Shown here: one piece after another, positions 13,903-32,343 of the stretch
Layout: the number at the start of each line of letters is the position of its first letter
Position numbering within the stretch: position 1 is the first letter of the stretch
NCBI RefSeq assembly: GCF_017876795.1
Contig: NZ_JAGIOR010000001.1
Span: 3,808,501-3,872,500, forward strand
Direction of reading: 5' to 3'
From: Rhizobium leguminosarum
Lineage (GTDB): Bacteria; Pseudomonadota; Alphaproteobacteria; Rhizobiales; Rhizobiaceae
Length of the DNA stretch: 64,000 nt
Program-made: the position numbers and the translations under genes
The notes under the pieces: model-generated
Database searches by the model: none
What the model was told of the DNA's origin: nothing
The model's input: only the letters and a program-made list of their open reading frames with translations

Positions 13903-13978
13903 GGGCGATTAGCTCAGTTGGTAGAGCGCCTCGTTTACACCGAGGATGTCGGGAGTTCGAGTCTCTCATCGCCCACCA
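13903..13978 (+). tRNA. tRNA-Val (TAC), integration target
   Basis: 76-nt cloverleaf. The acceptor GGGCGAT pairs with ATCGCCC, the anticodon loop TTTACAC gives TAC, and CCA is encoded. The last 23 bases (T-arm to CCA) are part of a direct repeat found again at 32319-32343. The phage-like element therefore integrated into the 3' end of this gene and restored it. Confidence 0.97.
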
Positions 13979-13980
13979 TT
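13956..13980 (+). repeat. attL, left core repeat
   Basis: 25-bp segment starting TTCGAGTCTC and ending CCCACCATT, identical to 32319-32343. It covers the 3' end of tRNA-Val plus two bases. Such tRNA-tail duplications are the usual product of tyrosine-recombinase integration. Confidence 0.93.
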
Positions 13981-14004
13981 CTATCTCTTTGAAATTGCTA
14001 GAAC

Positions 14005-14028
14005 CCCTTGCGCCATAAGGGCTTTTTG
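14005..14028 (+). terminator. Rho-independent terminator after tRNA-Val
   Basis: Stem CCCTT/AAGGG with loop GCGCCAT followed by CTTTTT. It lies on the element side of attL, so the element supplies the terminator for the reconstituted tRNA. Confidence 0.55.
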
Positions 14029-14038
14029 CCCATATTGA

Positions 14039-14058
14039 CGTCACAAATCACGTCACAA
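14039..14058 (+). repeat. Paired CGTCACAA sites near attL (possible integrase arm sites)
   Basis: CGTCACAA occurs at 14039-14046 and 14051-14058. The same pair recurs at 32228-32243 beside attR. Position and pairing at both ends fit arm-type integrase binding sites; this is inference. Confidence 0.4.
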
Positions 14059-14070
14059 AATGGGTTTCGA

Positions 14071-15629
14071 ATGGCTGGCAAGCCTCAACACTGGAAAGAG
14101 CGCAACGGGCGTTACTCGGCCCGCGTCGTCATCCCTCCCCAACTTCGGCCATATCTCGACAATCGCGCGGAACTGGAAATTCAGCTAGGCGGCGACCGGC
14201 GCACGGCTCTCCGCAACCACGCCGCTGCCGTCGCTTCTATCCAGCGCCAAATTGGCATTGCTCGGCAAAAGCACGAAGCCGCAACCGGCCAGCGGCCGAA
14301 AGCCCCCTCCTACCCTCTCACAGCCCAGCAGATCGCCCTTCGCGACTACCAGAGCCAAATCGACTTTGATGCGGAGCTGCGGGCGAACGATTCCCGATAT
14401 GCTCAGTTCGGCGTTGACCTTGATGACGCGCAACGCTTCCGAGACGGCTTCGCGGGCAAGCTGTCCGATGACGAACTAGAGGAACTGGTGGGCGCTCGCC
14501 TTGCCCGTGCCCGACTCGCCGGAAACACCGATGCCGCGAGGGGCACCGATAAATGGCGAGCGCTGGCGCAAGCGCTATGCGTGTCCTCTTACGAAGCGCT
14601 CGCTCGCGAGGACGAACGGAACGAAGGCGACTTTACCGGGAAGCCGACTCACCCGCTGCTTGCTGAAGCCCCGCCTATATATAATGACGAACCAGACCCG
14701 ATTACCTTCGACAATATAATAGACGACGAAGTTAAGCGCCGGGCGCGCGGGAAGAACGCGAAGCCCCTGCCCGACCGCACGGCGAAGAAGTATCGCGACC
14801 ATTGTGCCGCGTTCGCAAAGCGGCGCAAGAGTAAGAACGCGCTCACTGTCACGGCTGCAGAGGGCAAGGAATGGATCGAATCATTGCAGGACGCGGGCGA
14901 ACTCAGCAACCGCACTGTTAAGGCCATGCTTCAGAACGTCCGCACGGTCATGAATTGGGGACGCCAGAACGACCCCACGAACTTCTTCCCGGCAGGCAAC
15001 CCGCTCAACGGTATCAAAGCCCCCGACTTCACAACTCTGCCTTCTTATCTTCGCGCCTTCACTATGGACGAGGCCAACTTGTGCTTTCGGCGGCGCGGCA
15101 AGAGGACAAGGCTATGTTCCGGTGGATACCGTGGCTATGCGCCTATTCCGGGATGCGGGTTAGCGAAGCCGGGAATCTCCGCAAGGAAGACTTCTTCGAA
15201 ATCGGTGACCGGTGGTTCTGGAAGGTCACGACCGTAGGCGCTCGCTCGCTGAAGACCGCCAGCAGTGAGCGCCGCATTCCAGTCCATAAGGCTCTTGTCG
15301 ATGAAGGGTTCATTGATTTCGTGAAGGCTGCAAAGTCGGGACGGCTATTTAAAGGCGACACGAAGGACGCGATTCTTATTCAGCCCCGTATTAGCACATG
15401 GGTCCGCAGCCTCATCCCATTCGACAAGCGGCCCGAACTTTCGCCGAATCACGGCTGGCGTCACTTGTTCGAAGATTTGTGCCGTCGCGACCACGTGCCG
15501 GAAGATGCGCGCAACTATATGACCGGACGAACGGACGGCGGCTCTCAAGAGCTTTATGGGCGAAGCGAAGTGATGCTTCCCGGCCTGGCCGCTGCGATGG
15601 ACCGAATAATACCGATCCGCTTGACTTGA
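14071..15629 (+). pseudogene. Tyrosine integrase, frameshifted
   Basis: Site-specific recombinase expected to integrate and excise the element. The N-terminal part (MAGKPQHWKERNGRYSARV, then an SAM-like core-binding domain) reads in one frame from ATG 14071 to about 15080. The catalytic domain continues in the +1-shifted frame to 15629. The catalytic Arg (SGMRVSEAGNL), the HGWRH motif and the terminal Tyr (GGSQELYGR) are all downstream of the break. Restoring one G near 15081 (TTGTG to TTGGTG) would rejoin the frames. As written, no active recombinase is made. An earlier in-frame start at 14008 is possible but overlaps the arm sites. Confidence 0.88.
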
Positions 15630-15656
15630 GAACGTGGCATTTGGGAGCATAAGAAA

Positions 15657-15688
15657 TTCGCCCTCGCCGAAGTTTTGGCGAGGGCGAA
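15657..15688. terminator. Bidirectional terminator between integrase and the convergent gene
   Basis: Perfect 12-bp stem TTCGCCCTCGCC/GGCGAGGGCGAA with an 8-nt loop. It lies between the integrase stop (15629) and the stop of the minus-strand gene (15696). Confidence 0.8.
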
Positions 15689-15695
15689 CGCTGTA

Positions 15696-16010: not shown

Positions 16011-16250
16011 GTTGCAATTTCCTTGTATGGCTTCAGCAGCGGCTTGACCCGTCTTTCGTTCGGGCTAGAGTAAGCTTGCATTCATATCAGGCCGCCCTGA
16101 AGGCTTGGTTGAAGTTAGGCACTGGGTTGCGCCCCAGTGCCCACATCTGTTATTGGCCCCACCGATTCGCGCAAGCCGTGCGGCTATTTTTCCCAATGAA
16201 ATACACATAATTCACACATTGAAGAATTTATTCCTTCTTTTAGGAATATT

Positions 16251-16335: not shown

Positions 16336-16351
16336 CATTAAGAAGGCGGCG

Positions 16352-17566
16352 ATGATGCCGCTTAACAACCTCATCGAACAGAAGGCATATACTCTCCTCG
16401 ATGCCCGCCTTTCCGAATTGGTTGGCACTCGACCTACTTACTCAGGCGTGAATATCGGCGGGCAGTCGGCACTTTATGTTCCGGCTGTTCTTCAGGCTAT
16501 CCGGTTGATCTCCGAGAATATTGGATCGCTTCCTTGCAAGCTCTATCGGGAAACCGCAGACAGCAAGGAAGAGGCCAAGGATCATCCCGCCTATCGCATC
16601 GTCCACAAGCGGGCGAACGAATATACGGGCGCGGGTGAGTTTCGCGTGGCCCTCACTGCCGACGCCTTTACTCACGGCAACGGCTATGCTCGCGTGATCC
16701 GGTATCCCGACGATGGCCGCCCCTACGCTTTCGACTATCTAGAACCTGGCAAGGTCACGACGCTGAAGCATCCGCTGACCGGCGCGCCGGTCTATCGTGT
16801 TTCCGAAGAAGACGGCGGCACCCGCGATTATCCCTTCACCGAAATTCTTCATCTTCGCTCGTTTCTCGGCAAGTCGCCGATCTCGTTCGGCAAGGAAGGC
16901 ATCGGCCTCGCGTCCATCCTTGAGCGCCACGGCGCGCAGTTCTTTGGCTCCGGCGCTCGACCGACCGGCATTTTTACCAATGAAGGCAAGGCCGTCAGTG
17001 GCGACGACGCGAAGGGCGCGAAAACGGTCATCAGTATTCTAAAGTCGTTCCGCAAGTGGAAGGACAGCGGGAACGGTGATCCGCTCATTATAGACGGCGG
17101 TTGGAAGTATGAGGCCCAGACGATGGCCTCGACCGATGCGCAGTTCATCGAGAATCGCGATTTCCAGCTTGATGAAATCGCCCGCATCTTCGGCGTTCCA
17201 CCGCATCTCGTATTCAACTTTAAGCGCCAGACTTGGAGCAACGCCGAAACCATGGGCGCGGCGTTCCTCACGCTTTGCCTGAAGCCGTGGCTGGACCGCT
17301 GGACGGATGCCCTTGCGACCGTCCTTCTCAGCGAAGACGAACAGGACAGCCATTCTTTCGAGTTTGTGACCGACGACCTCATGCGTGCCGATGCGGCCAG
17401 CCGCACCGCGAACATGACCGCCTTGGTGACGAACCGCATCATGACCCCGAACGAAGTCCGGGCGATCCTGAACCTTCAGCCGCTTCCGGGCGGCGATGAA
17501 CTCACCAATCCGCACACGACCAGCAACGCCGCGCCGGTTCCGGCCCCGGCGAAGGAACCCGCATGA
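16352..17566 (+). CDS. Phage portal protein (HK97 family)
   Basis: Dodecameric ring protein at the capsid vertex through which DNA is packaged. 404 residues from ATG 16352. An in-frame TTG at 16307 would add 15 residues but lies inside the inverted repeats. Features include YVPAVLQAIRLISENIGSLP near the N-terminus, TADAFTHGNGYARVIR and the GVPPHLVF...NAETMGAAFL segment, all typical of the HK97 portal family. An AAGG ribosome site precedes the ATG. The next gene overlaps by 4 bases. Confidence 0.93.
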   Translation: MMPLNNLIEQKAYTLLDARLSELVGTRPTYSGVNIGGQSALYVPAVLQAIRLISENIGSLPCKLYRETADSKEEAKDHPAYRIVHKRANEYTGAGEFRVALTADAFTHGNGYARVIRYPDDGRPYAFDYLEPGKVTTLKHPLTGAPVYRVSEEDGGTRDYPFTEILHLRSFLGKSPISFGKEGIGLASILERHGAQFFGSGARPTGIFTNEGKAVSGDDAKGAKTVISILKSFRKWKDSGNGDPLIIDGGWKYEAQTMASTDAQFIENRDFQLDEIARIFGVPPHLVFNFKRQTWSNAETMGAAFLTLCLKPWLDRWTDALATVLLSEDEQDSHSFEFVTDDLMRADAASRTANMTALVTNRIMTPNEVRAILNLQPLPGGDELTNPHTTSNAAPVPAPAKEPA

Positions 17567-17883
17567 CCGAACACCGCGCCTTCTTCGGCGACGGCGAAAA
17601 GCTATTCGCCTTCCCGACCCGCGAACTTATCGAAGAGCTTGAGCGCAAGACCGGCCAGCCTATCGGCGCGCTTTTTCGCCGGTTCCAGAACCATGACTTT
17701 TCGTTCTCCGACCTGACCGAAGTTATTCGGCTCGGCCTTATCGGTGGTGGCGCTTCGCCCGCCGACGCCGACCGGCTCGTGTCTGTCTATTCGATCGGTC
17801 GTCCGCTCACCGAAAGCTTCCTCATCGCGCTCGGCATCGTCACGGCGCTGTTCCTCGGCAACGCTGAAGAAGACGCAGAATGA
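17563..17883 (+). CDS. GTA-gp10-like tail protein or assembly chaperone
   Basis: 106 residues. The stretch LTEVIRLGLIGGGASPADADRLV followed by GRPLTESFLIALGI matches my memory of the gene-transfer-agent family proteins (Phage_TAC_11 / GTA gp10). Its position between portal and capsid is unusual for a tail gene. It overlaps the portal stop (ATGA) and the next start (ATGA), so it is tightly coupled in the operon. Confidence 0.6.
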   Translation: MTEHRAFFGDGEKLFAFPTRELIEELERKTGQPIGALFRRFQNHDFSFSDLTEVIRLGLIGGGASPADADRLVSVYSIGRPLTESFLIALGIVTALFLGNAEEDAE

Positions 17884-19436
17884 GCGAACGCCTCGAATTC
17901 AAGGCCGCGCTCACGGTTGACGACGCCGGCACTATCACCGGCATTGCATGGCCTTTCGGTTCCCCGGATCGCGTCGGCGACGTGATCGAAAAGGGTGCGT
18001 TCGCCTCGCCCGAAGTCCTGCCGATGCTGTTCGCCCATGATCAGGGGCAGGTTATCGGCGTTTGGGACCAGATCGAAGAAACCCCGGACGGTTTGACCGT
18101 CAAGGGCCGCTTGCTCGTGGACGACGTTGAACGCGCCCGCGAAGTCCGCGCCATGATCCGCACGAAGGCCGTTTCCGGCCTGTCCATCGGCTTCCGCACG
18201 AAGGCAGCGAAGCCCCGTCAGCGCGGGCGCACGATTACCGCCCTCGACCTTCACGAAATCTCAGTTGTCGCCGTCCCTAGCCATCCCGGCGCGCAAATCA
18301 CGTCAGTAAAGGCCGCCGATGGCACGGCAGACCAGAAGGAAACCATCTTGGAAAATGAAGCAGAACTTGAAGTGAAGAACGATCCGGTGATCTCGCCGGA
18401 AGATTTGAAGGCACTCAAGGCCGACGTTGCGACGATCAAGGCGAAGCTCAATCGCCCGACCGCCGCGAACAACAATCACCCGGTGCCGGCCAATGACAAC
18501 GGCTTTGAGCGTAAGGCTTTCAACCTGTTTCTTCGCCGTGGCGTCGAACGTATGTCCGCCGACGAAGTGAAGGCGCTCACGGTCGCCAACGACACGAACG
18601 GCGGCTTCCTCGCCCCGGAAGAAGTCGGCAATGAGCTTATCAAGCTTCTGTCCGAATACTCGCCGATCCGCAGCTATGCCCGCGTCGTCTCGATCTCTGC
18701 CGAGTCCATCAAGTATCCGCGCCGCATGTCCGGCACCGCTGCAACGTGGGTGGACGAAACCGAAGACCGCACCGAAAGCGGCATGACGTTCGAACAGGTC
18801 ACGCTGACGCCTATCGAGCTGGCGACCTTCACCGACGTTTCGAACCAGCTCCTCGAAGACAACGCCTATGGTCTTGAGGGTGAACTTCTGTCCGACTATG
18901 CGCAGTCGTTCGGCCAGACCGAAGGACTTGCATTCGTCAAGGGCACGGGCATCAAGCAGCCGAAGGGCATCATGACCGCTTCCGGCATCAAGGAAGTGAA
19001 AACTGGCGTTGCCGCTGCCTTCCCGACCACGAGCCCGGCAGACGTGCTTATCGGCATGTATCACGCCATTGCGACGACGCACGCCAATAACGGCGTCTGG
19101 CTCATGAACCGCAACACGCTCGGCACTATTCGCCAGTGGAAGGACAGCACGGGCCGTTATCTCGTTCTCGACCCGATCACCGCAGGTGGCGTTTCCACCC
19201 TGCTTGGCCGTCCGATTGTCGAGATGCCCGACATGGACGATATCGGCGCAGGCAAGTTCCCGATCCTTTTCGGCGACCTGACCGGCTACCGGATCGTTGA
19301 CCGCGTCGGACTTTCGACCCTTCGCGACCCCTACACCCTCGCAACGAAGGGACAGGTTCGCTTCCACGCTCGTAAGCGCGTCGGCGCTGACGTGACTCAC
19401 CCTGACCGCTTTATCAAGCTGAAGGTCGCGGCCTAA
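17880..19436 (+). CDS. Fused HK97 prohead protease and major capsid protein
   Basis: 518 residues combining two usually separate phage proteins. Residues 1 to about 150 are an HK97-type maturation protease: GIAWPFGSPDRVGDVIEKGAF, His53 in LFAHDQG, and Ser in VSGLSIGF. Residues about 160-215 are a charged helical scaffold-like delta region. From about 220 follows an HK97-fold major capsid protein (NGGFLAPEEVGNELIKLL, KGTGIKQPKGIM, LLGRPIVEMPDM). Fusion means protease and shell are made in equal amounts and the protease must be cleaved off during maturation. No separate protease gene exists in the element. Confidence 0.93.
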   Translation: MSERLEFKAALTVDDAGTITGIAWPFGSPDRVGDVIEKGAFASPEVLPMLFAHDQGQVIGVWDQIEETPDGLTVKGRLLVDDVERAREVRAMIRTKAVSGLSIGFRTKAAKPRQRGRTITALDLHEISVVAVPSHPGAQITSVKAADGTADQKETILENEAELEVKNDPVISPEDLKALKADVATIKAKLNRPTAANNNHPVPANDNGFERKAFNLFLRRGVERMSADEVKALTVANDTNGGFLAPEEVGNELIKLLSEYSPIRSYARVVSISAESIKYPRRMSGTAATWVDETEDRTESGMTFEQVTLTPIELATFTDVSNQLLEDNAYGLEGELLSDYAQSFGQTEGLAFVKGTGIKQPKGIMTASGIKEVKTGVAAAFPTTSPADVLIGMYHAIATTHANNGVWLMNRNTLGTIRQWKDSTGRYLVLDPITAGGVSTLLGRPIVEMPDMDDIGAGKFPILFGDLTGYRIVDRVGLSTLRDPYTLATKGQVRFHARKRVGADVTHPDRFIKLKVAA

Positions 19437-19438
19437 TT

Positions 19439-20062
19439 ATGAACCTTCAGCGGCCCGCATTTGAACAGGTGACGATCGCGCACGGTGGCAACTCCGTGAC
19501 GCTTCGCCCTTCTTTGCGGGCCGCCGCGACTCTTGAGGAACGCCACGGCCTGCCGGCACTGTTCCGCGCCCTGAACGACCTCAACTTGACTATCATTTCC
19601 GACATCATCCTGACCGCGTCCCTTCCTGGTCATGATGCAGCGGCTTTCTTGTCCTCAACCTCGGGAAAGCCGCTCTTCCCTTTCTTCATGGCCGCGCAAA
19701 AGCCGCTCGCCGATCTCGTGTCCATGTTCATGCCCGCGCCCGATCCGAAGGCCCCGCCTTCCACCGGCACCGGCAAGCCTATGCCGTGGTCCGAAGTATT
19801 CGCGACCCTCTTTGACAGCGCGACCGGCTGGCTTGGCTGGACGCCGGACGCTGCTTGGAACGCGACCCCGACCGAAATCACCCGCGCCATGTCCGCGCAC
19901 TTTGACCGGCTCGTCAGGACTGGCGTCCTCGTTCGCGACAAGACGACCGCAAAGGCACCCGACCCTGAGCAGGCCGCGCGGAACATCGCCGAAAACCTGG
20001 ACCCCGAATTTGACCGCGCCGGGCTTCGCGCCCTCAAGGCGAAGATCTCACAAGGAAACTGA
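19439..20062 (+). CDS. Putative phage tail assembly chaperone-like protein
   Basis: 207 residues. An N-terminal beta-rich part (FEQVTIAHGGNSVTLRPSLRAAATLEERHG) resembles tail-tube or chaperone N-termini. The C-terminal half has GWTPDAAWNATPTEITRAMSAH, reminiscent of the TAC_6 chaperone family. It starts 2 bases after the capsid stop. If it is a chaperone, its client tail tube protein is not encoded nearby, which is odd. Confidence 0.5.
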   Translation: MNLQRPAFEQVTIAHGGNSVTLRPSLRAAATLEERHGLPALFRALNDLNLTIISDIILTASLPGHDAAAFLSSTSGKPLFPFFMAAQKPLADLVSMFMPAPDPKAPPSTGTGKPMPWSEVFATLFDSATGWLGWTPDAAWNATPTEITRAMSAHFDRLVRTGVLVRDKTTAKAPDPEQAARNIAENLDPEFDRAGLRALKAKISQGN

Positions 20063-20064
20063 GA

Positions 20065-20328
20065 ATGATCGACCCCTTCGAACAGTATGCCCGTCCGCAC
20101 CCCGGCACCTTCGACCACGCTCTTGCGATCACCCCGGACAATGACAACGATTTGTCGGTTGCTCCTAGCCTCATTTGGCTTGGAACGCCCGGCGACGTGC
20201 GGATTACCGCAATGAACGGCGAGACGGTCACGCTCAAGAATCCGAAGTTGCTGCCCTTCCTCTTTGCGAGGGCGAAACGCATCCACGCGACCGGAACCAC
20301 GGCCAGCGACATCGTTCTGTTGTGGTAA
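20065..20328 (+). CDS. Spike-base-like phage protein (RCAP_rcc01079 type)
   Basis: 87 residues, beta-rich. The patterns APSLIWLGTPGDVRITAMNGETVTLKN and RAKRIHATGTTASDIVLLW match the short proteins annotated as spike base protein of the Rhodobacter GTA. It starts 2 bases after the preceding stop. In GTA-like particles this protein sits near head spikes. The assignment comes from remembered pattern only. Confidence 0.55.
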   Translation: MIDPFEQYARPHPGTFDHALAITPDNDNDLSVAPSLIWLGTPGDVRITAMNGETVTLKNPKLLPFLFARAKRIHATGTTASDIVLLW

Positions 20329-20330
20329 TC

Positions 20331-20729
20331 ATGAGCTTGCCGCCTCGCATCTGCTCTTGTGGAAACGTCGTGCCTCATGGCGAGCTTTGCGCTTGTCAGA
20401 AGAAGGCACGGCAGGAACGTGGTGCGCGTCATGACGCACGGCGTCCTTCAGCTCGTGCGCGCGGCTATAACCATGAGTGGCGCAAGGCCCGCGCCGAATA
20501 CCTCGCCACGCACCCGCATTGCCGGGAATGCAGCAATCACGGCGTCACCCGCCATGCTACCGTCGTGGATCACATCATTCCGCATCGTGGCGACCAGCGC
20601 TTGTTTTGGCACCGCGCCAATTGGCAGCCCCTTTGTGCGCCTTGCCACAACAGCGTGAAGCAGCGGCAGGAACAGAACACCCTTAGTAAAAATCGGAACC
20701 AGAGCTTTGAGGCAGCGGAGTGTCAGTGA
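20331..20729 (+). CDS. HNH endonuclease
   Basis: 132 residues from ATG 20331. A Cys pair near the N-terminus (CSCGN) is followed by the HNH core: CRECSNHG, TVVDHIIPHRGD, NWQPLCAPCHNSVK. HNH nucleases next to packaging genes commonly assist terminase in HK97-type phages. The C-terminal 47 bases overlap the 3' end of the minus-strand gene 20683-21177. Confidence 0.9.
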   Translation: MSLPPRICSCGNVVPHGELCACQKKARQERGARHDARRPSARARGYNHEWRKARAEYLATHPHCRECSNHGVTRHATVVDHIIPHRGDQRLFWHRANWQPLCAPCHNSVKQRQEQNTLSKNRNQSFEAAECQ

Positions 20730-21347: not shown

Positions 21348-21650
21348 ATGACCGCAGTAGGTCTTGATCTCGCCAAGGCTCATATGAAGGTGGATGGAAC
21401 CGCCGAAGATGAGCTTGTTTCCCTGTATCTTGAGGCCGCAGAGGCGTGGTGCGGGAATTACATCGGCAAGCCGATTGCCGATCTCGCCCCCGTTCCGGCA
21501 GACGTGAAGCTTGCGATTTTAAAGCTCATTTCCTTCTATTACGAGGTGCGCAGCCTCGCGACTTATGGCCTTTCCGTCGATATGGCACCGCAGGGCGTGA
21601 CCTCCATCCTCGATAGCTATCGCGAAAAGTGGTTCACCGATGGCGAGTAA
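21348..21650 (+). CDS. Head-tail connector protein (gp6-like)
   Basis: 100 residues, all-helical. The pattern LDLAKAHMKVDGTAEDELVSLYLEAAEAWCGNYIGKP is the signature of the HK97 gp6 / DNA-packaging connector family, which docks under the portal. It overlaps the start of the next gene by 11 bases. Confidence 0.88.
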   Translation: MTAVGLDLAKAHMKVDGTAEDELVSLYLEAAEAWCGNYIGKPIADLAPVPADVKLAILKLISFYYEVRSLATYGLSVDMAPQGVTSILDSYREKWFTDGE

Positions 21651-24806: not shown

Positions 24807-24817
24807 GGACTTTTCGC

Positions 24818-27064
24818 ATGGCAGATGATGGCCAGCAGCTTCTTCTTACTTTCGACGCCAAGTTTGAAAGGTATCTTCGCAACTTCGAACGGGCGCAACA
24901 GCAGACCGACCGGCGCTTCCGGGCAATGGAACAGCGTTCCAAACAGGCAAGCGACCGCATGGAAAGCGCCTTCGCGAAGGCCGGCAGCGGTATTCGCAAC
25001 ACCTTCAGTTCGATCGGCAACGTCTTCGCTGGTATCGTGTCGGCGAAGGCCACGAAGGATCTCATTGATAGCTCGATCAAGATCCAGAACCAGCTCAAGA
25101 CGACCGGCCTTGCTGGCAAGGAATTGAAGGGCGTCTACGACGAGCTTTTCGCATCCGCGTGGAAGAACGCCACGCCGCTTGAAGCCCTCGTGACGCTCTA
25201 TAGCCGCACCTCCGGCGCAGCTAAGGATTTGGGCGCAAGTCAGCAGGATTTGCTTAGGTTCACGGATGGCGTGTCGCTCGCAATGCGCGTTTCCGGCCAG
25301 TCGGCAAGCGAAAGCGCGGGCGCACTGCTTCAGCTTTCCCAGGCGCTCGGCGGCGGGAAGATTCAGGCCGAAGAATATAATAGCCTTCTGGATGCCGGCC
25401 GCCCGATCCTTCAGGCCGTTGCAGCGGGATTGTCCGACGCGGGCGGCTCGGTTTCGAACCTCACGAAGCTCGTGAAGGATGGCAAGGTTTCGTCGGAAGC
25501 CTTCTTCCGCGCATTCCTTGCCGGTCTTCCGACCCTTCAGCAGCAGGTGGCCGGATCGGAAGCGACCATTTCCAGCAGCTTTGTGCGCCTTCAGAACGTG
25601 CTTATCGACGCCGCAGGGCGCTTCGATCACTCCGCGAAGGCGTCGAAGGCATTTGGCTCTGTCATTGATGGAGTTGCGGCCTCTATCAGCGCCGTGAACT
25701 TCGATAACTTGATAACCCAGATCGAAGCAGTCACGACCGCCGTTCAGAATAGCATTGCGACCCTGAACAGTTGGGCGGACACGCTCGGCACGATCTCCGG
25801 CGCGGGTAATCTCGGCGACTTGATTGTTTCGTCACTGCCCGGCGACACGACGGTTAAGAATGTCCTCGGCATGAAGGTTGTTCAAACCGATCAGGTGCAG
25901 CGCCGCATCACTGACGCATTTGACGCACCGGCCACGAATTCCGGCGGACTCACGCCCGAACAGATCAAGGCGTTCGCCAGCAATTCCGGCGCGATAGCAG
26001 GCGCAGAAGCGGCAGCGAAGGTTTCCCGCCTTCCGGCTGCACCGAATGCGCCGGCAGCGGTCAAGCCCGTATCGCTCGCCGATTATCCGATTGCGCCCAC
26101 GAGTGCCGCGCCCAGCAGTGCGGGCCGTGGGGGAAGTGGTGGCAGGAGCGGCCGCGACAGCTTCGCCAGCGACCTTCAGGAACTTCAGTCACGCACCCAG
26201 GCGCTTCAGTCGGCGACGGCAGCGCAGGCCGCGTTGAACCCGTTGATTGACGACTACGGCGCAGCACTGGCGACGGCGCAGGCGAAGCAGCAGCTTATGA
26301 ACGCTGCCCAGCAGCAGAATAAGACCGTGACGCCGGAGATGGCCGCCCAGATCGATGTGGCAGCGCAGGCATATGGGCGGGCGACCGCAGCAGCCGAACA
26401 GCTTCAGGAGCAGCAGGACGCCGTAAGGCGCTCGGCAGAAGAAGCCCTTGGCACCGCCCGCGACGTGACGCAGGGGCTTATCACCGACCTTGCCAGCGGC
26501 AAGAGCGGCGCGGAAGCCCTGTCTAATGCGCTTGCCAAGATCGGCGATGCGATCTTGAACAACCTCTTGGATAAGGTATTCGACCTGAAGAACTTCACCG
26601 GCACCGGGAGCGCCGGGGGCGGTTTCCTCGGCGTCATTGGTTCCTTGCTCGGCTTCTCGGACGGTGGCTATACCGGCGACGGCGGGAAGCACGAGCCGAA
26701 GGGCGTTGTCCACGGTGGCGAATTCGTCGTGACGAAGGAGGCAACGCGCCGCATCGGCGTCCAGGCGCTGAATGCAATGAACTATGGTCGGGTGCCCGGT
26801 TATGCCGAAGGGGGCTATGTCGGCAGCGCCCCGGCGCTTCGCAAGCCCGATCTCGTCGTCGCGAACGGCAACGCCGCGCCGGTCCAGCAGATCAATATTT
26901 CTTCTGCGATCACCGTCAACGGTAGCGCCGGAACGCCCGAACAGAACACCGACCTCGCCCGCAAGATGGCCCGCGAATACGAACAGTCCATGCGTGGCGT
27001 TGTTGCCGACGAAATCCGCAAGCAGACGCGGCCCGGCGCGTTCATGAACCAGAGGGCGCGCTAA
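24818..27064 (+). CDS. Tail tape-measure protein
   Basis: 748 residues. An N-terminal coiled-coil region (ERAQQQTDRRFRAMEQRSKQASDRME) precedes the tape-measure domain (TTGLAGKELKGVYDELFASAWK, LYSRTSGAAKDLGASQQDLLRF, SQALGGGKIQAEEYNSLLDAG). The Gln/Ala-rich helical middle contains a Gly/Ser linker near 425-445. The C-terminus has the usual GGYTGDGGKHEPKGVVHGGEFV motif. The protein would set tail length. Its presence without any tail tube gene is the main oddity of this element. It starts 11 bases after the terminase. Confidence 0.92.
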   Translation: MADDGQQLLLTFDAKFERYLRNFERAQQQTDRRFRAMEQRSKQASDRMESAFAKAGSGIRNTFSSIGNVFAGIVSAKATKDLIDSSIKIQNQLKTTGLAGKELKGVYDELFASAWKNATPLEALVTLYSRTSGAAKDLGASQQDLLRFTDGVSLAMRVSGQSASESAGALLQLSQALGGGKIQAEEYNSLLDAGRPILQAVAAGLSDAGGSVSNLTKLVKDGKVSSEAFFRAFLAGLPTLQQQVAGSEATISSSFVRLQNVLIDAAGRFDHSAKASKAFGSVIDGVAASISAVNFDNLITQIEAVTTAVQNSIATLNSWADTLGTISGAGNLGDLIVSSLPGDTTVKNVLGMKVVQTDQVQRRITDAFDAPATNSGGLTPEQIKAFASNSGAIAGAEAAAKVSRLPAAPNAPAAVKPVSLADYPIAPTSAAPSSAGRGGSGGRSGRDSFASDLQELQSRTQALQSATAAQAALNPLIDDYGAALATAQAKQQLMNAAQQQNKTVTPEMAAQIDVAAQAYGRATAAAEQLQEQQDAVRRSAEEALGTARDVTQGLITDLASGKSGAEALSNALAKIGDAILNNLLDKVFDLKNFTGTGSAGGGFLGVIGSLLGFSDGGYTGDGGKHEPKGVVHGGEFVVTKEATRRIGVQALNAMNYGRVPGYAEGGYVGSAPALRKPDLVVANGNAAPVQQINISSAITVNGSAGTPEQNTDLARKMAREYEQSMRGVVADEIRKQTRPGAFMNQRAR

Positions 27065-27423
27065 TGGCAGGTTCATTTGCAAACGGTCTGAGTTATGCAA
27101 CTCTAGGAAACGACACTCAAAACAATATGGAGTCAGACGCCATGTGGTTGACTTACCCCTTCAAGGTGAACGCAGCGCTTGCGGCCATGGCTATTCCCCC
27201 TCAGACCTTCACATCTGAATGGCGTTCTGAACTTCAGCGGCTTGGATATTCCTCCAAGCTGACGCCGCAAGAAACAGCTCTCCTGATGGTCGCTCACGGG
27301 CTTGGCATCCACTACCCGCTCGATGTGGAACGAGCCATTGGCGTCTGGCGCCATGAACGAATGATTGACATTTCGAAGCCGAGTGTCGCCGAAGCGCTTA
27401 GCAAGATGGGTTTCAGTATTTAG
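27064..27423 (+). CDS. Hypothetical protein, last gene of the structural operon
   Basis: 119 residues, start ATG overlapping the tape-measure stop (TAATG). Family not recognised. The C-terminal half is helical with HGLGIHYPLDVERAIGVWRHERMID. In a complete siphophage this place would hold distal tail genes, so it may be a replacement. Function unknown. Confidence 0.65.
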   Translation: MAGSFANGLSYATLGNDTQNNMESDAMWLTYPFKVNAALAAMAIPPQTFTSEWRSELQRLGYSSKLTPQETALLMVAHGLGIHYPLDVERAIGVWRHERMIDISKPSVAEALSKMGFSI

Positions 27424-27640: not shown

Positions 27641-27682
27641 CTCTCACATCGACATGGGATAGTTCCCGACCGAAAGCTCTCT

Positions 27683-27722: not shown

Positions 27723-27791
27723 TCACTCGACAGCGCCGCTAGGCGCTGGCAAGGCCGAAGGCCGCGCAGGGAGCCGCCTGCGGCGGCGAGT

Positions 27792-27814
27792 GTCCGGCGA
27801 CGTTATGGCGAATT
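27792..27814 (+). repeat. 23-bp motif, copy 1
   Basis: GTCCGGCGACGTTATGGCGA plus ATT. Identical to 28544-28566 and inverted at 27900-27922. It flanks an AT-rich segment (27815-27870). Confidence 0.85.
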
Positions 27815-27870
27815 CTTCGTCTTTTATATGTATCTTATTATCTAGTATCTACGTCCGTAATATACGTGCA

Positions 27871-27885
27871 ATAACGTCGCCGGAC
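27871..27885 (-). repeat. 23-bp motif, partial inverted copy
   Basis: 15-bp match (ATAACGTCGCCGGAC on the plus strand) to the inverted motif. It lies 14 bases before the complete inverted copy. Confidence 0.75.
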
Positions 27886-27899
27886 ATTTAGCCATTCCT

Positions 27900-27922
27900 A
27901 ATTCGCCATAACGTCGCCGGAC
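27900..27922 (-). repeat. 23-bp motif, complete inverted copy
   Basis: Exact reverse complement of copy 1, about 68 bases upstream of the ribbon-helix-helix gene. With copy 1 it brackets an AT-rich stretch that looks like a promoter or melting region. Confidence 0.85.
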
Positions 27923-27989
27923 TTTCCGCCCCATTTCTGCCATCATATTACTCCAATATTGGATTATTATTTGATCCCCGGAGCATCCC

Positions 27990-28415
27990 TTGTCTAAACC
28001 TGATTCCCTTCGCCTTTCTCCGCGCCGCCTCGAACAGCTTCACGCCATCGCGGGCGCGCTCGGCCTGTCCGTCACTGAAACCATCACCCACATGATCCGA
28101 AGGGAAATCGCCGCTGGCACGATCCCGGCAGCAGTTCCTGGCTTTGCCGTGAAGAAGGAAGCAGACGGCGTTTCCATCCAGATCGATAACGGCCCCGGCA
28201 AGACTTATAGCGTGGAAGGTGCGAGGGCGCTGGCAGCGACCATTCGTGGAACCGTTGCCGGTGAGGTCGGCGTCTTCAGCGTCAAGCATGGCTACAGCTT
28301 CATCCGGCTTGGCAGGGGCTTCAAGCTCAGCTCACCGATGCCCGGCTCGGAAGTCAGTATGACGGGCGATCTCGCTATTGATCTTGCGGAACAGATCGAA
28401 AAGGCCGCAGCATAA
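27990..28415 (+). CDS. Ribbon-helix-helix DNA-binding protein, putative element regulator
   Basis: 141 residues. Residues 5-45 (LRLSPRRLEQLHAIAGALGLSVTETITHMIRREI) look like a ribbon-helix-helix fold (MetJ/Arc/CopG type). The rest is a beta-rich domain of unknown type (KTYSVEGARALAATIRG, FSVKHGYSFIRLGRGFKLSSP). The start is TTG at 27990 with a CCGGAG ribosome site eight bases upstream; no ATG is available in the N-terminal part. It lies just downstream of three copies of the 23-bp motif, so autoregulation through that motif is a reasonable inference. Confidence 0.7.
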   Translation: MSKPDSLRLSPRRLEQLHAIAGALGLSVTETITHMIRREIAAGTIPAAVPGFAVKKEADGVSIQIDNGPGKTYSVEGARALAATIRGTVAGEVGVFSVKHGYSFIRLGRGFKLSSPMPGSEVSMTGDLAIDLAEQIEKAAA

Positions 28416-28420
28416 GAAAA

Positions 28421-28449
28421 ACCCCGGCGAGTGCTTAATGCGCCGGGGT
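28421..28449 (+). terminator. Rho-independent terminator after the RHH gene
   Basis: Stem ACCCCGGCG/CGCCGGGGT with an 11-nt loop, followed by CTTAAG. Preceded by an A-run, so it may also work in reverse. Confidence 0.65.
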
Positions 28450-28484
28450 CTTAAGGTCACAATCCGCTTCAAAGACTGTTCACA

Positions 28485-29081
28485 ATGATTAGCAAAACAG
28501 ACGAAGATAGTCAACATTTATTGAACAATGACGCGGCGACCGCGTCCGGCGACGTTATGGCGAATTTCATGGCAAGCAGCCCGGTTGACCCGAAGTTGGC
28601 AAGCGGCTTCGACCTCACCGAAGACGACATCGCCGAGATTGTCGCCTATGACGAACAGCGCCCGCCCTCACGGCATAAGGCAGTGTTTGAGGCTTGGCAG
28701 GAACGGCACCGAGCAGATATCGAGCGCAACCAGCGCACCGGCCATATCGCACAGGGGCTCGACGCCATTGACGAGCACCGCAAGACGCCGGAAGGACGCG
28801 CCGACTACAACGCTAATCGCCGAGAGAAGCGCAGCAAGGACGCCAATGCAGAGGGCCGGACCATTAAGCCCCGGAAGCGTCACGAGACGCAGGACGAAAG
28901 TGTGCGGGCCCACGCCGCCGCGAAGCTCGGTTATAAGAGCCGGCAGAAAGCCGAATTTGCCTTATTGTCGCCGGACGAGCAGCAAGCCATCCGTGACAAA
29001 GAGGCGGAGCGGAAGCGTAACAAGCGCAGAGAGAATGAGGAGAAGGCCGCGCAGGCGCTTAGGGATAAGGCCATCTTCTAA
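28485..29081 (+). CDS. Highly charged hypothetical protein
   Basis: 198 residues, rich in Lys, Arg and Glu, mostly helical, no family recognised. The 3' half (RRPKSRQKAEFALLSPDEQQAIRDKEAERKR type) suggests a nucleic-acid-binding coil. The start is uncertain. ATG 28485 has no good ribosome site. The 23-bp repeat lies inside the frame and offers an internal ATG at 28558, which would give a 173-residue protein. Confidence 0.55.
   Translation: MISKTDEDSQHLLNNDAATASGDVMANFMASSPVDPKLASGFDLTEDDIAEIVAYDEQRPPSRHKAVFEAWQERHRADIERNQRTGHIAQGLDAIDEHRKTPEGRADYNANRREKRSKDANAEGRTIKPRKRHETQDESVRAHAAAKLGYKSRQKAEFALLSPDEQQAIRDKEAERKRNKRRENEEKAAQALRDKAIF
28544..28566 (+). repeat. 23-bp motif, copy 4, inside a reading frame
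   Basis: Identical to copy 1 at 27792. It lies within the first codons of the gene at 28485, so it may act as an operator over the real start of that gene. Confidence 0.85.
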
Positions 29082-29133
29082 CTATTCGCGCACTACCTAC
29101 CGCGCTTCCTCGGCGATCCCGCTATAATTGTCC

Positions 29134-29165
29134 ATGTCAGTCATTACTGGCGTTCTGACTGACAT
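29134..29165. promoter_or_regulatory. 10-bp perfect inverted repeat
   Basis: ATGTCAGTCA (29134-29143) and TGACTGACAT (29156-29165) separated by 12 bases. It lies between gene 28485 and a strong terminator. Operator or RNA hairpin. Confidence 0.5.
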
Positions 29166-29196
29166 AGGGCGCTTGCTAACACCTGCCCCTGTATGG

Positions 29197-29231
29197 ACAC
29201 CCCTACGTTTACATGACGTAGGGGTGTCTTT
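29197..29231 (+). terminator. Strong rho-independent terminator
   Basis: Perfect 12-bp stem ACACCCCTACGT/ACGTAGGGGTGT with a 7-nt loop followed by CTTTG. It ends the 28485 transcription unit. Confidence 0.8.
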
Positions 29232-29359
29232 GTGAAGGCGGTAAGTAAGCATTTACTTATTCTAATTTGAATTCAAATACTTAAACCGAAACATGCTTGC
29301 CAAATCATTAACATTGAATCATCCGTGTTGCTGTTAGCAAGCAACAAGGAGCCTCCACC

Positions 29360-29551
29360 ATGCAGGAGCAATTCATTGAACTCGACCGCTACAATCTCGC
29401 CATCGCCGGCCTTGAAGCAATCGCCCGCACATTCGAACCGGCCGCGCCTGACGATCTCCGCACCCGGATTATAGAAGTGCTCGGCGATCTCGGCGTGTGG
29501 CCGGAAGACTGCTTGGAGCAACGGCATGTCACGCCGCGTCTGGTCGCTTGA
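29360..29551 (+). CDS. Small hypothetical protein
   Basis: 63 residues, MQEQFIELDRYNLAIAGLEA..., acidic and helical. An AAGGAG ribosome site lies eight bases before the ATG, which supports translation. Family unknown. Confidence 0.6.
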   Translation: MQEQFIELDRYNLAIAGLEAIARTFEPAAPDDLRTRIIEVLGDLGVWPEDCLEQRHVTPRLVA

Positions 29552-29561
29552 CTTCCTATAT

Positions 29562-29594
29562 TCGTTTCGTTACATGCAGATTGTAACGAAACGA
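29562..29594. promoter_or_regulatory. 13-bp perfect inverted repeat upstream of gene 29608
   Basis: TCGTTTCGTTACA (29562-29574) and TGTAACGAAACGA (29582-29594) around a 7-base spacer, ending 13 bases before the next ATG. It is well placed for an operator that blocks transcription or translation initiation. Confidence 0.65.
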
Positions 29595-29607
29595 GATTGA
29601 GGCTCAA

Positions 29608-30117
29608 ATGGCTAAAACGCCAGCAGAACGCACCCGTGAGCATCGCGAACGCCTTATAGCAAAGGAGCGCGAAAAACTGCTTCAGCCTATCCCGGCACCC
29701 GCTTACGTCCAGACCCCGTTCCATGCCTTCATGGAAGGCCGTCATGTAGACTTCGAGGAAAACCTTGATGCTTACGGCGTCCAGATCAGCGGCACCGATC
29801 TCGGCGAGGAAGTGCAGAAGTTCGAAACGGAAGCGCCGTGGGACAGGTCATTCACCTCGCTCGAACGAGCGAGAGGCATGATGGGCGTCTTCCTCGACGC
29901 CGCGAAGGAACTCGCGGCCCTAATCAATGAATACAAGCTTCAGGAAATTGAAGCCGCCATCGATGCCGCGCACGAAGTCAGTGCCGACTTGCCACGTGGC
30001 GATGTGGAAGCACTCAAGAAATCCTTTGCCGAGATTGAACGCCTAAAGGCTATCCGATCGGAGCTTAGGAAGCCGATGCGGCACACCCTGCTTAGCGTCG
30101 ATGCGAAGGGCGAATAG
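29608..30117 (+). CDS. Hypothetical protein with basic N-terminus
   Basis: 169 residues. The N-terminus AKTPAERTREHRERLIAKEREK is a basic helix of the kind seen in many small phage DNA-binding proteins. The remainder is helical and acidic. No family recognised. It is controlled by, or adjacent to, the inverted repeat at 29562. Confidence 0.6.
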   Translation: MAKTPAERTREHRERLIAKEREKLLQPIPAPAYVQTPFHAFMEGRHVDFEENLDAYGVQISGTDLGEEVQKFETEAPWDRSFTSLERARGMMGVFLDAAKELAALINEYKLQEIEAAIDAAHEVSADLPRGDVEALKKSFAEIERLKAIRSELRKPMRHTLLSVDAKGE

Positions 30118-30226
30118 CTCATGAAGCAATGCCCTACCGGAAGCGGCGGGAACCGCCCCGGCAGGTCTGAAATGCCGACTACCAATCAACATTCAAAAGC
30201 CCTTGAGGGCTGGAAAGGCTTATACC

Positions 30227-30508
30227 ATGTCGAAGACCGACAAGGAACTGTTTCGCGAATACTTGGCATCCAAGGAATCGGGTAACGGCGAAGACACCGT
30301 TTTCCGCCTCTATCTGACCGGCCACGAGTGCTTCGGCATCGACGAGATGCTGAACGACGTTGTGAACAGCATCGTCAACGCCGACCCGGAGCCGGTTCAG
30401 GAACTCGACTTTTTGATGGATGAATTGCGCGGGCTTCTTCATAACCTCGCCCACGTCAAGAAGGGTTTCCTTGCCTACAAGGCTGCTCAGACTGGCGAGG
30501 CCGCATAA
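30227..30508 (+). CDS. Small acidic hypothetical protein
   Basis: 93 residues from ATG 30227 (MSKTDKELFREYLASK). Acidic and helical; no recognised family. Its stop overlaps the start of the next gene (TAATG), so the two are translationally coupled. Confidence 0.6.
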   Translation: MSKTDKELFREYLASKESGNGEDTVFRLYLTGHECFGIDEMLNDVVNSIVNADPEPVQELDFLMDELRGLLHNLAHVKKGFLAYKAAQTGEAA

Positions 30509-30765
30509 TGGCTCCCTCCCCGGAACTGAAGCTCATGGTGTCAGGTGTGGCCCTCGATCCGCTGGAAGCCAAGAGGGCCGCAATCCTCGCCCGGCAGGCC
30601 GATGCGCGACGTGAACTCGCCTCGCTGACCGATTGCGAACCTGAAACGGACGAACACGAGCCGTCCATTCGCGCGCGGTTGGCGTGGCTTGGATTGCAGA
30701 AGGCAACCAAGAGGGAGCTTCGCGAAATCATCGTGAATGCTATGGAAAGCGATCGCAACCTCTAA
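30508..30765 (+). CDS. Small hypothetical protein
   Basis: 85 residues, MAPSPELKLMVSGVALDPLEAKRAA..., helical. Coupled to the gene before it. A terminator follows 12 bases after the stop. Function unknown. Confidence 0.55.
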   Translation: MAPSPELKLMVSGVALDPLEAKRAAILARQADARRELASLTDCEPETDEHEPSIRARLAWLGLQKATKRELREIIVNAMESDRNL

Positions 30766-30777
30766 GCGCCTCATCAC

Positions 30778-30804
30778 GGCCCGCCCTCACGGCGGGCCTT
30801 TTCC
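30778..30804 (+). terminator. Rho-independent terminator
   Basis: GGCCCGCC/GGCGGGCC stem with a CTCAC loop followed by TTTTCCTTTT. It closes the two-gene unit 30227-30765. Confidence 0.85.
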
Positions 30805-30817
30805 TTTTGGAGCTATC

Positions 30818-31024
30818 ATGTCCAGCAGATACGAAGGGCTATCCGCCGAAGAAGCCGACGACGTTATGAGGGGCACAATTGGCTCCCTCATCTGTGAGAT
30901 GCTTGACGAATCCCGGCGCATGACGCGCAAGGAGCTCAACGAGCGCGATATCTTCGAATGGTCGAACTATGTGGCCGGTTTGATCGCGGTCGTTATCGAG
31001 AACCGGCGACGGGGCGCACCGTGA
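30818..31024 (+). CDS. Small hypothetical protein
   Basis: 68 residues, MSSRYEGLSAEEADDVMRG..., helical. A TTTTGGAG ribosome site lies six bases before the ATG at 30818. Its stop overlaps the GTG start of the next gene. Confidence 0.55.
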   Translation: MSSRYEGLSAEEADDVMRGTIGSLICEMLDESRRMTRKELNERDIFEWSNYVAGLIAVVIENRRRGAP

Positions 31025-31446
31025 AAACGCGTGCTGAAAGGCGGCGCGAACGAAGAAAGCAGTGGTTCGTTCAAGCCGAAGTCGAGGACTTCATTCGTCA
31101 AGAATATCCCGCCTGCCCGGAATTTGCAGTGGTCTATTTCGCGACCCGCATTTGCACCGTGCCGAAGAACTGGCGTAGCGCGCCGATCTCCGAAGCCGTT
31201 GATGTGACGATGCAGAACATGCTTCGCCACCAACTGACTGATTACGATCAGCTGATGTTGATTGGAGTTCGGCGGAAGGAAGCCCGGCGACGGGTTCAAC
31301 CGAAGGTCAACGCCATCATTGATGGCTGGAAGAAACAGCGGCCCGAAATGGTTGCTCAGCCGGTTGAGAAGCGGATGGATCCGAGAGAATTCGCAGCCGA
31401 GCTACTTATCACCGACAAGGTAATCATGGATCGCCTCGCCAAGTAA
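31021..31446 (+). CDS. Basic hypothetical protein
   Basis: 141 residues from GTG 31021, which overlaps the previous stop (GTGA). A strongly basic N-terminus (VKTRAERRRERRKQW) suggests nucleic-acid binding. Helical throughout. No family recognised. Confidence 0.55.
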   Translation: MKTRAERRRERRKQWFVQAEVEDFIRQEYPACPEFAVVYFATRICTVPKNWRSAPISEAVDVTMQNMLRHQLTDYDQLMLIGVRRKEARRRVQPKVNAIIDGWKKQRPEMVAQPVEKRMDPREFAAELLITDKVIMDRLAK

Positions 31447-31552
31447 TGAGCGTCAGAGCAGCACAACATCCGCGGTTGAAGATCGGCGAACTCCCTCTTG
31501 TTTGGGGTTGCATTCGTCGGCACAATCTCCCGTGGCAAAGGGGAGTTACTCG

Positions 31553-31633
31553 ATGAAATTTGATTTCAGGAGCACGGTGCACTTTGTGCGTTCGACCGTC
31601 GCGTCGAGCATGAGGAGCGCGCATGTTCGTTAA
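31553..31633 (+). CDS. Possible 26-codon leader peptide
   Basis: A short ORF (MKFDFRSTVHFVRS...) with a very good ribosome site (AAGGGGAG, eight bases before the ATG). Its stop codon overlaps the start of the membrane protein gene at 31623. It could couple translation or be a leader. Too short to be sure. Confidence 0.35.
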   Translation: MKFDFRSTVHFVRSTVASSMRSAHVR

Positions 31634-32132
31634 AGGGGTAGTCAGACGACAGGTGGGGCTCGAGTGGTGGGCTGGGTTTGCCAGCAGCGTGGTGGTGATT
31701 GCTTACGGCTTCCTCACCCCTGAGCCGTTCCACCTACAGATGCTGTTTGCCATGACCGTTGCGCTCGTGATTCAGGTCATGCACGGTCTTCGCACGGCCA
31801 GCGAATTGCATAGGGATGAGGTGATGTCGGCGGAGTGGCGCGGGCAGCTAGCCTTGCGCCTCGGCATGGAGCGCCTCGCCAACGAACCGAAGCGCGGAAT
31901 CGACTGGGAAGAAATCCGAAGCGAGGTAACAGCCGACGTGAAGGCAGCCATCGAAAGTGATCATTTCGACGACCAATTCAAACGTTCCGTCTATACCGAG
32001 ATGGTTATCCATTTCTGCTCAATACCGCTATCTCTGCTTTTTCGCCCGCTCTTGGGTTGGTGGCTGGCACAGGCGTTGCTCACCTATGCGCCGCGTCTCG
32101 TTGTATTCTTGACCACCGGAGTTAGAATATAA
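31623..32132 (+). CDS. Membrane protein next to attR
   Basis: 169 residues. Two hydrophobic helices near the N-terminus (WWAGFASSVVVIAYGFL and LQMLFAMTVALVIQVM) and two near the C-terminus (IHFCSIPLSLLFRPLLGWWLAQALL, YAPRLVVFLTTGV) flank a charged cytosolic loop of about 65 residues. A GAGGAG ribosome site precedes the ATG. Last gene of the element; this position often holds lysogenic-conversion or superinfection-exclusion genes, but the function here is unknown. Confidence 0.65.
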   Translation: MFVKGVVRRQVGLEWWAGFASSVVVIAYGFLTPEPFHLQMLFAMTVALVIQVMHGLRTASELHRDEVMSAEWRGQLALRLGMERLANEPKRGIDWEEIRSEVTADVKAAIESDHFDDQFKRSVYTEMVIHFCSIPLSLLFRPLLGWWLAQALLTYAPRLVVFLTTGVRI

Positions 32133-32227
32133 GCTAGGCCGATTAGTGTGCCAGTTGGGCTAAATGTCCGGCCCGCCCAAAGGACGAAGGCCGCCCCGCC
32201 CACAACTTTCTTTCACAAATTTCCGAC

Positions 32228-32243
32228 CGTCACAACGTCACAA
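32228..32243 (+). repeat. Paired CGTCACAA sites near attR
   Basis: Two abutting CGTCACAA copies (32228-32235, 32236-32243), about 75 bases inside attR, matching the pair near attL. Confidence 0.4.
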
Positions 32244-32318
32244 ATTAGCAGACTCTACTATTTGTTTTATCTTTTATATTCAATAGTTTATGGGGAATAC
32301 CGATGAGAGGTTCGAGTT

Positions 32319-32343
32319 TTCGAGTCTCTCATCGCCCACCATT
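32319..32343 (+). repeat. attR, right core repeat
   Basis: 25-bp exact copy of the tRNA-Val 3' end at 13956-13980. The bases upstream do not continue the tRNA, so this is the displaced tRNA tail. Confidence 0.93.

Follow-up and report, generated by a model that had tools for sequence, protein, structure and literature searches.

What does an 18.4 kb mobile element do with a tape measure protein when it has no recognizable tail tube? This question is raised by a locus in a 64,000-nucleotide stretch of Rhizobium leguminosarum DNA (assembly GCF_017876795.1, contig NZ_JAGIOR010000001.1, positions 3,808,501 to 3,872,500 of the forward strand; hereafter the window, whose own numbering is used below). 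The element is bounded by perfect 25-bp direct repeats, at 13956-13980 (attL side, overlapping the 3' end of a tRNA-Val gene at 13903-13978) and 32319-32343 (attR side). Its plus-strand operon encodes, in order, the portal protein, the tail assembly chaperone TAC11, a fused protease-capsid protein, the probable second chaperone TAC6, the small protein p87, an HNH endonuclease, a connector, a neck protein, a tail terminator, a head closure protein, the small and large terminase subunits (terS and terL) and the tape measure, so that capsid, portal, protease, connectors, HNH endonuclease and both terminases are all its own. A first-pass annotation, made from the letters alone, had described the repeats, the 18.4 kb size and the head and packaging inventory, with its fused protease-capsid, terminases and 748-residue tape measure. 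Pfam and PHROGs profiles bear out that inventory and add TAC11, TAC6 and the tail terminator; these, and a frame break in the integrase, had been overlooked. Here we argue that the element belongs to a family of capsid-forming satellites that are likely to assemble chimeric tails, their own tape measure docking in the tip of a helper phage and the helper's tube being recruited around it.

The absence of tail genes was examined with Pfam, PHROGs and phmmer, none of which found a major tail protein, distal tail, hub, tip or lysis gene in the element, in agreement with the first-pass annotation on tail tube, distal tail and lysis genes; nor was the megatron, a tail gene of gene transfer agents (GTAs), found. 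The only lysis-labelled match, to the "endolysin" family phrog_1768, is the tape measure's own C-terminus and was set aside. A tube gene hidden among the open reading frames (ORFs) had been named as one of the observations that would count against a satellite. Profiles and tube sequences found none in the window, and a phmmer search of the element's open frames (at least 40 aa) with tail-tube queries found no tube; by our reading, the only two queries that matched do so through ends that read into the HNH gene region.

This gene content is not peculiar to the window. Loci were gathered by one tape measure scan and two terL-alignment scans, of which the best 80 of 254 and the best 80 of at least 561 confirmed loci were kept, and were annotated with phmmer. 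The tape measure follows terL directly in 146 loci, and 124 of these, having a portal gene and at least 1.5 kb beyond the tape measure, are termed complete (64 from genomes and 60 from viral contigs, with 107 distinct terL; L003, a near-duplicate of the window, was excluded). Portal, terL and tape measure are present in all 124 by selection, the connector in 118, capsid, HNH, neck, terminator, head closure and terS in 122 each, and TAC11 and TAC6 in 114 each. A tube-like gene is lacking in 114 of the 124. The phmmer screen alone had placed a tube gene in 0 of 146 loci; ORF clustering then showed a tube-like ORF in 9 of the 124, and a final search with these ORFs as queries added L127, for a total of 10. 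This total leaves out L162, whose weak match involves a different segment of the L027 query. The hosts include Rhizobium, Agrobacterium, Shinella, Hoeflea, Mesorhizobium, Bosea, Ruegeria, Roseovarius, Paracoccus and Rhodobacter, and the gene order recurs across Rhizobiales and Rhodobacterales. Scored by terL alone (E <= 1e-150), the group is represented in 57 of the 394 genomes from the window's family, including that of the window itself, whereas none of the seven other same-genus genomes listed reaches E <= 1e-80. Close relatives of this terL are absent from named phages: the 2,090 matching records all stay under 60% identity, and the best identity to named phages among the 25 matches listed is 32%.

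These loci are also integrated in a regular manner. We scanned 51 genome loci for tRNAs, and 34 of the 44 with a suitably placed tRNA have att-like repeats, 17-32 nt long, at tRNA genes of several amino acid specificities; the elements so mapped are 16.5-18.9 kb long (median 18.0, 34 loci). The first-pass annotation had proposed that recurrent gene content without tail genes would favour a satellite, and had offered three readings: a satellite that keeps a tape measure of its own while borrowing the tail tube, a GTA-like element, or a prophage with a clean deletion. The first gains support from a layout that recurs in 124 complete loci, 114 of them without a tube-like gene, a recurrence that makes chance irrelevant to the observation. 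A clean deletion and a GTA are not supported, given the number of different loci, the att repeats at several tRNA genes and the missing tube; both were rejected on recurrence, mapped sizes and att repeats. The elements form a family, and a decayed prophage is excluded at the family level. A separate set of seven loci (L118, L120, L122, L125, L128, L129 and L133) has similar capsid and terL genes with no tape measure match near terL, and these are possibly ordinary tail-taking satellites.

The tape measure (24818-27064, plus strand, 748 aa) is by its sequence a chimera, with a siphophage-type body (residues 1-670) and a last ~60 residues of the type found in the phages RHEph10 and RHph_X66 (X66). 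The body is 46-48% identical over ~640 aa to the tape measures of vB_MseS-P1 and RHph_TM3_3_14B, and the siphophages with such a body are rhizobial phages of 40-60 kb. The phages that share the end, here called helper-type, are RHph_X66, B1VFA, V1VFA-S, RHEph10, N1_10 and Y2_11, all Rhizobium phages of 115-122 kb; against these six, residues 1-670 score 80-144 (X66, 98), where 20 shuffled controls averaged 62 and reached 89 at most, which amounts to little or weak similarity. Conversely, the last 78 residues have no match to the siphophage tape measures. With the last 60 aa, none of 25 phage-type tape measures scores above 42 and 47 helper-type ones score 73-250, whereas residues 1-300 have median scores of 617 and 77, respectively; the phage-type set was found through the body and hence selected for body likeness, and the helper-type set (41 contigs, obtained via gpL or in earlier scans, and the six named phages) is not dereplicated. 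By tblastn (E <= 0.1), the last 72 aa match 10 of 50,697 phage records, all of them 115-122 kb Rhizobium phages with RHEph10 counted twice, while the full-length protein matches 987. In 13 satellite/phage pairs of our choosing (three with the window), aligned ungapped from the 3' end, DNA identity is 43-93% across the final three blocks of 60 nt, compared with 18-50% further upstream, and this confinement indicates a shared module of ~60 residues. The tape measure is therefore present, as the first-pass annotation had stated, but not simply retained, since its end is of another phage group's type. Such an end points to the helper, and suggests how satellites might seize another phage's tail parts.

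A second protein of the element, TAC6 (19439-20062, plus strand; PF09550, E 0.003, below the Pfam cut-off), carries a similar signature. When 27 protein pieces of the element were compared with X66 (bases 1-105,000 of 120,445, six frames), only the tape measure (E 6e-26) and TAC6 gave convincing matches; the integrase matched weakly (E 0.004). The ~25 C-terminal residues of TAC6 match the protein encoded just before the tape measure in X66-type phages, with 74% identity to that of X66 over TAC6 residues 184-206 (blastp E 1e-5, small database). The X66 protein is annotated "hypothetical", and we call it TAC-T for its lambda-like position between the tube and tape measure genes. A search with the last 88 residues of TAC6 matched 22 phage records, of which three are X66-type and match through the C-terminal segment (E 9e-3 to 4e-2); the others, 18 Pseudomonas phages and one Saccharomonospora phage, match through a different part, some at E 6e-3. 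In the AlphaFold model of TAC6 (mean predicted local distance difference test score, pLDDT, 87.5; 72-83 over the last 30 residues), the chain closes with a helix of its own at residues 193-205.

The matches of the two ends vary together across helper subtypes. A gpL search collected 47 loci of the X66-like phage type, and 102 satellites were scored against 25 dereplicated phages with both ends readable, after tape measures below 500 aa and exact duplicates had been dropped. With row and column means removed, tape-measure-end and TAC-end scores correlate at r 0.361 with phage TAC-T ORFs picked partly by eye, and none of 5,000 permutations reached this value. Permuting within terL clades of at least 55, 65 and 75% identity gave 0/5,000 each time (null maxima 0.279, 0.320 and 0.342), automatic TAC-T picks gave r 0.296 (26 phages; null maximum 0.171, 0/5,000), and removal of the tube-bearing loci left r 0.342 (0/5,000). 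Clear pairs are the window with V1VFA-S, X66 and B1VFA; L141 with L226; L057 and L189 with L235; L197 with L250; and L006, L095 and L097 with L228.

Some relatives also carry genes for tip proteins of the helper type. A gpM gene of this type stands directly after the tape measure in 10/124 loci, and a gpI gene, which we take to correspond to gp34 of phage T1, occurs in nine loci of the whole set, five of them among the 124 (E 6e-44 to 1e-101). The gpM proteins of L146 and of phage contig L228 share 96% identity; the DNA agrees at 325/354 positions and falls to background level right beyond the gene. Over the 10 satellites, gpM scores correlate with tape-measure-end scores (r 0.605, 5/10,000 permutations), with the gpM-best helper standing low in the tape-measure-end ranking for four of the ten. 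By phmmer (E <= 1e-3), no gpL, gpK or gpJ was found in the loci examined, except in the phage contigs L041-L044. The tube-like domain, for its part, is found in a sister group of nine loci and in L127. In L109 it matches a PHROG major tail protein (E 1e-20) and is accompanied by a distal tail match (E 2e-47). Helper-type end and own tube seldom coincide: both are present in 2 loci, the end only in 105, the tube only in 8 and neither in 6 (Fisher 1.4e-7; 121 loci with tape measures of at least 500 aa, which are related, so that the p-value is not one of independent events). The motif rule used for the end is conservative, and some "neither" rows look helper-type by eye. The tube-bearing sister loci L022, L109, L112, L113, L121, L123 and L124 have the same head and packaging order with different tape measure ends, and it is possible that they are ancestors or complete phages. 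In L127 (4539-6191), the tube-like domain is fused to the C-terminus of the capsid protein, and a gpM-like ORF lies nearby.

From the gene content, its recurrence, the chimera and the covariation, we infer the helper, the assembly steps and the particle as follows. The satellite would make its own ~18 kb head and package its own DNA, supplying connectors, terminator, one or two tail assembly chaperones and the tape measure, with no tube or tip. These two would come from an infecting phage of the RHEph10/X66 type, 115-122 kb in size; the X66-type gene order is lambda-like (tube, two small chaperone-position genes, tape measure, M, L, K, I, J), and X66, with annotated RepC and Par and no annotated integrase within 1-105,000, may be plasmid-like or virulent. 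The satellite tape measure would dock in the helper's lambda-like tip through its last ~60 residues, the helper-type C-terminus of TAC6 would recruit the helper tube protein, the tube would polymerize for as long as the satellite's ruler allows, and the satellite neck proteins would cap the tube on the satellite head. With 748 residues against ~1,540 in the helper's tape measure, and at the roughly 0.15 nm per residue of TP901-1, we estimate tails of about 90-110 nm for the satellite and 210-230 nm for the helper. The satellite thus has every head-side part, plus those that would meet the helper's tip and, probably, its tube. Work on other phages supports such interfaces. TP901-1 needs the C-terminal 60 residues of its tape measure, which are assigned to the initiator complex on the tip side (PMC5099701); in T1, the tape measure C-terminus sits within a lambda-like tip cone, where the insertion protein gp34 supports it, and lambda is similar (PMC11945409); and a T domain recruits the tube protein (PMC4493119). 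We lean towards a more general view of the tape measure as a modular adaptor, in which an interchangeable body serves tail length and neck fit, and a ~60-residue C-terminal cassette, a ~25-residue chaperone end and sometimes a borrowed gpM or gpI are exchanged or co-evolve to fit one helper subtype. If this is true, the helper specificity of a capsid-forming satellite could be read from two short protein ends.

Several observations weigh against a satellite with a chimeric tail. The TAC6 model has no significant structural match, the name TAC6 rests on a sub-threshold Pfam match, and its helper partner is a "hypothetical" protein named by position. The two ends choose the identical single best helper in only 11/102 satellites (6.3 expected), and the covariation may in part be co-divergence of hosts, phages and satellites. 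The satellite terminator has no sequence match to that of X66, though it must cap the helper tube, and L127 and L134 combine a tube-like domain with a helper-type end. A helper resident in the window's own genome was considered and rejected, as no X66-type tape measure is found there apart from the satellite's own C-terminus. Finally, the integrase is broken in the window copy. That last point would also suit a defective prophage from which tube, tip and lysis genes were deleted, leaving the tape measure as a remnant, and the tube-bearing sister group, together with the distal tail match in L109, implies that the lineage probably derives from a tailed phage. We nevertheless regard this as highly improbable, given that core head, packaging, chaperone and tape measure genes persist in 114-124 of 124 loci while 114 have no tube-like gene, that mapped sizes are narrow with att repeats at several tRNA genes, and that the tape measure end follows other phages. 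Such decay is refuted for the family, and keeps its force only for the activity of the window copy.

The satellite might instead attach finished helper tails, with the tape measure and chaperones as unused leftovers. Known capsid-forming phage-inducible chromosomal islands (cf-PICIs) are described as helper-dependent only for tails (PMC10690885), and in TP901-1 mutants, purified tails and tail-less heads regain function when combined (PMC4493119). Moreover, our 124 loci were selected for a tape measure, and the seven similar-head loci without one mean that tail-taking with no tape measure may exist in relatives. As an account of the tape-measure-bearing loci it seems unlikely, for the loci have kept their chaperones (114/124) and tape measure, the ends of both follow helper subtypes as unused genes would not, and some loci add helper-type gpM and gpI. 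A further reading is that of decoys, in which tape measure and chaperone poison the tail assembly of the helper as a defence and build no satellite tail: a protein that ends in the helper's docking module for the tip could be a competitor of the helper's tape measure, and Rta of the Vibrio cholerae element PLE11 blocks tail assembly (PMC12987554). Long rulers (median 877 aa, 121 loci) and a neck, terminator and packaging genes of the element's own exceed what a decoy needs, and we give this explanation very little credence, although a decoy effect and tail building could coexist. Tail assembly on a helper's tip remains the reading we prefer.

The other genes of the operon were assigned as follows. 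On the plus strand lie the portal protein (16352-17566; PF04860, Pfam and PHROGs), TAC11 of the GTA-gp10 type (17563-17883; PF11836, E 9e-21), the S78 prohead protease fused to an HK97-type major capsid protein (17880-19436), p87 (20065-20328, 87 aa; phrog_12296) and the HNH endonuclease (20325-20729), and then the gp6-like head-tail connector (21348-21650), the HK97-gp10 type neck or tail completion protein (21640-22056), the tail terminator (22053-22466; PF11367), the head closure protein (22454-22783; PF05521), terS (22780-23166) and terL (23166-24806), all assigned by Pfam or PHROGs. In some relatives the helper-type gpI gene occupies the place of p87, after TAC6, and the helper-type gpM gene that of a 119-aa protein without assigned function (27064-27423, plus strand) behind the tape measure. 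The interval between HNH and connector holds a large mixed ORF cluster in 89/124 loci (for example L073:7562-8104; median 180 aa, single linkage), one member of which is HNH-endonuclease-like; the window has a minus-strand ORF at that place.

The tyrosine integrase (14008-15629, plus strand) is in two pieces, 14008-15237 and 15000-15629, with a shift of reading frame between about 15070 and 15111. It is split likewise in the near-identical contig L003 and is a single open frame of 517-532 aa in the relatives L038, L057 and L059; the window copy may be unable to excise by itself. Downstream of the operon, four copies of a 19-23 nt repeat (27791-28566, two on each strand) surround p141 and p198 and are candidate operators or replication iterons; other short repeats lie downstream of the tape measure in L059, L148, L099 and L105. 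The protein p141 (27990-28415, plus strand), with a CopG-like N-terminus judged by eye only and relatives in 47/124 loci, is a candidate regulator. The accessory region (28485-32132, plus strand) holds the small ORFs p198, p63, p169, p93, p85, p95, p162 (DUF2293) and p169b. The control and replication module of phage-inducible chromosomal islands (PICIs) comprises AlpA/Stl and a primase; 10 window ORFs and 95 accessory ORFs of 16 loci gave no profile match to AlpA or primase, a search that divergent proteins could escape. A Rep-like protein with an HUH motif (invariant HxHG and conserved Y..K residues), found in 38/124 loci (for example L171:13142-14155) and not in the window, is a probable HUH replication initiator, its model resembling the Rep nuclease domains of adeno-associated virus and circoviruses (Foldseek best E 4e-3, mixed folds, none at or below 0.001). 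Accessory regions of the 16 loci also have matches to the TIR, Abi-alpha, pentapeptide and MT-A70 families, possible defence cargo, with some of these ORFs probably host genes beyond the element. The window's genome holds a second, decayed element (L053, G000:C1 about 3398-3407 kb), in which no tape measure was found. It has genes for portal, protease-capsid (49% identical), HNH, connector and terS, and its terL is split into two parts separated by ~1.7 kb.

Among known systems, the element differs from a complete prophage in that no tail tube, tip or lysis genes were found. GTAs have a head-tail cluster with tube and baseplate, in a vertically inherited locus without att repeats or integrase; unlike them, the element has att repeats, an integrase remnant and varied tRNA sites in its family, and no tube, distal tail, hub or megatron was found. 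It shares its tape measure body and a TAC11-type chaperone with the records of vB_MseS-P1 (Mesorhizobium) and RHph_TM3_3_14B (Rhizobium), which have a tube, MseS-P1 also a distal tail and hub, and a different tape measure C-terminus. With the six helper-type phages it shares the last ~60 aa of the tape measure, and, in the case of the X66 group, also the ~25-aa C-terminus of the pre-tape-measure protein; unlike the element, these are 115-122 kb phages with lambda-like tails. Close counterparts in gene content are the cf-PICIs, known here by description only, which average 14 kb (PMC10803314) and likewise have their own capsid, protease, portal, connectors, HNH and terminases, a small size and site-specific integration. 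They depend on helper tails, and the element, without tube or tip genes, would do so too. Some are said to encode putative tmp genes (PMC12987554, legend of Extended Data Fig. 10b). The element differs in that profiles found no AlpA or primase and in its tape measure, chaperones, terminator and helper-type C-termini. It would work like a cf-PICI, and we do not file it as one: profiles did not show a control and replication module of the PICI kind, and the comparison is with descriptions. The Streptomyces satellites MulchRoom and MiniFlayer also combine their own capsid and packaging genes with no primase, in other hosts and with other genes, tail fibre genes in the case of MiniFlayer; the word "tape" is absent from the text of PMC10690885.

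The V. cholerae PICI-like elements (PLEs) are, like our element, satellites with a tape measure and chaperone of their own, here compared from genes alone. They encode a tape measure, chaperone and hub protein, and have been shown experimentally to form chimeric tails with helper components, shorter in keeping with the satellite's tape measure (PMC12987554), so a satellite-encoded tape measure is in itself not new. Unlike the element, which has its own capsid and protease, PLE11 has virions that contain helper capsid proteins (PMC12987554). In the open-access literature searched, we found no report of helper-type C-termini, of their covariation with helper subtypes, of the alphaproteobacterial family or of its probable helpers. 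Our data suggest that capsid-forming satellites with chimeric tails may be common in Alphaproteobacteria, rhizobia included, and by naming probable helpers they provide a route to predicting satellite-helper pairs from sequence. The PLE tape measure and chaperone are 20% identical to those of the helper ICP1, and both the mechanism of their selective use and the way in which a satellite tape measure enters a helper tail are there called unknown; no interface matching is reported in the section on PLEs (PMC12987554). In the rhizobial element such matching is seen, and it singles out two interfaces, the docking of the tape measure in the helper's tip and, probably, the recruitment of the helper's tube.

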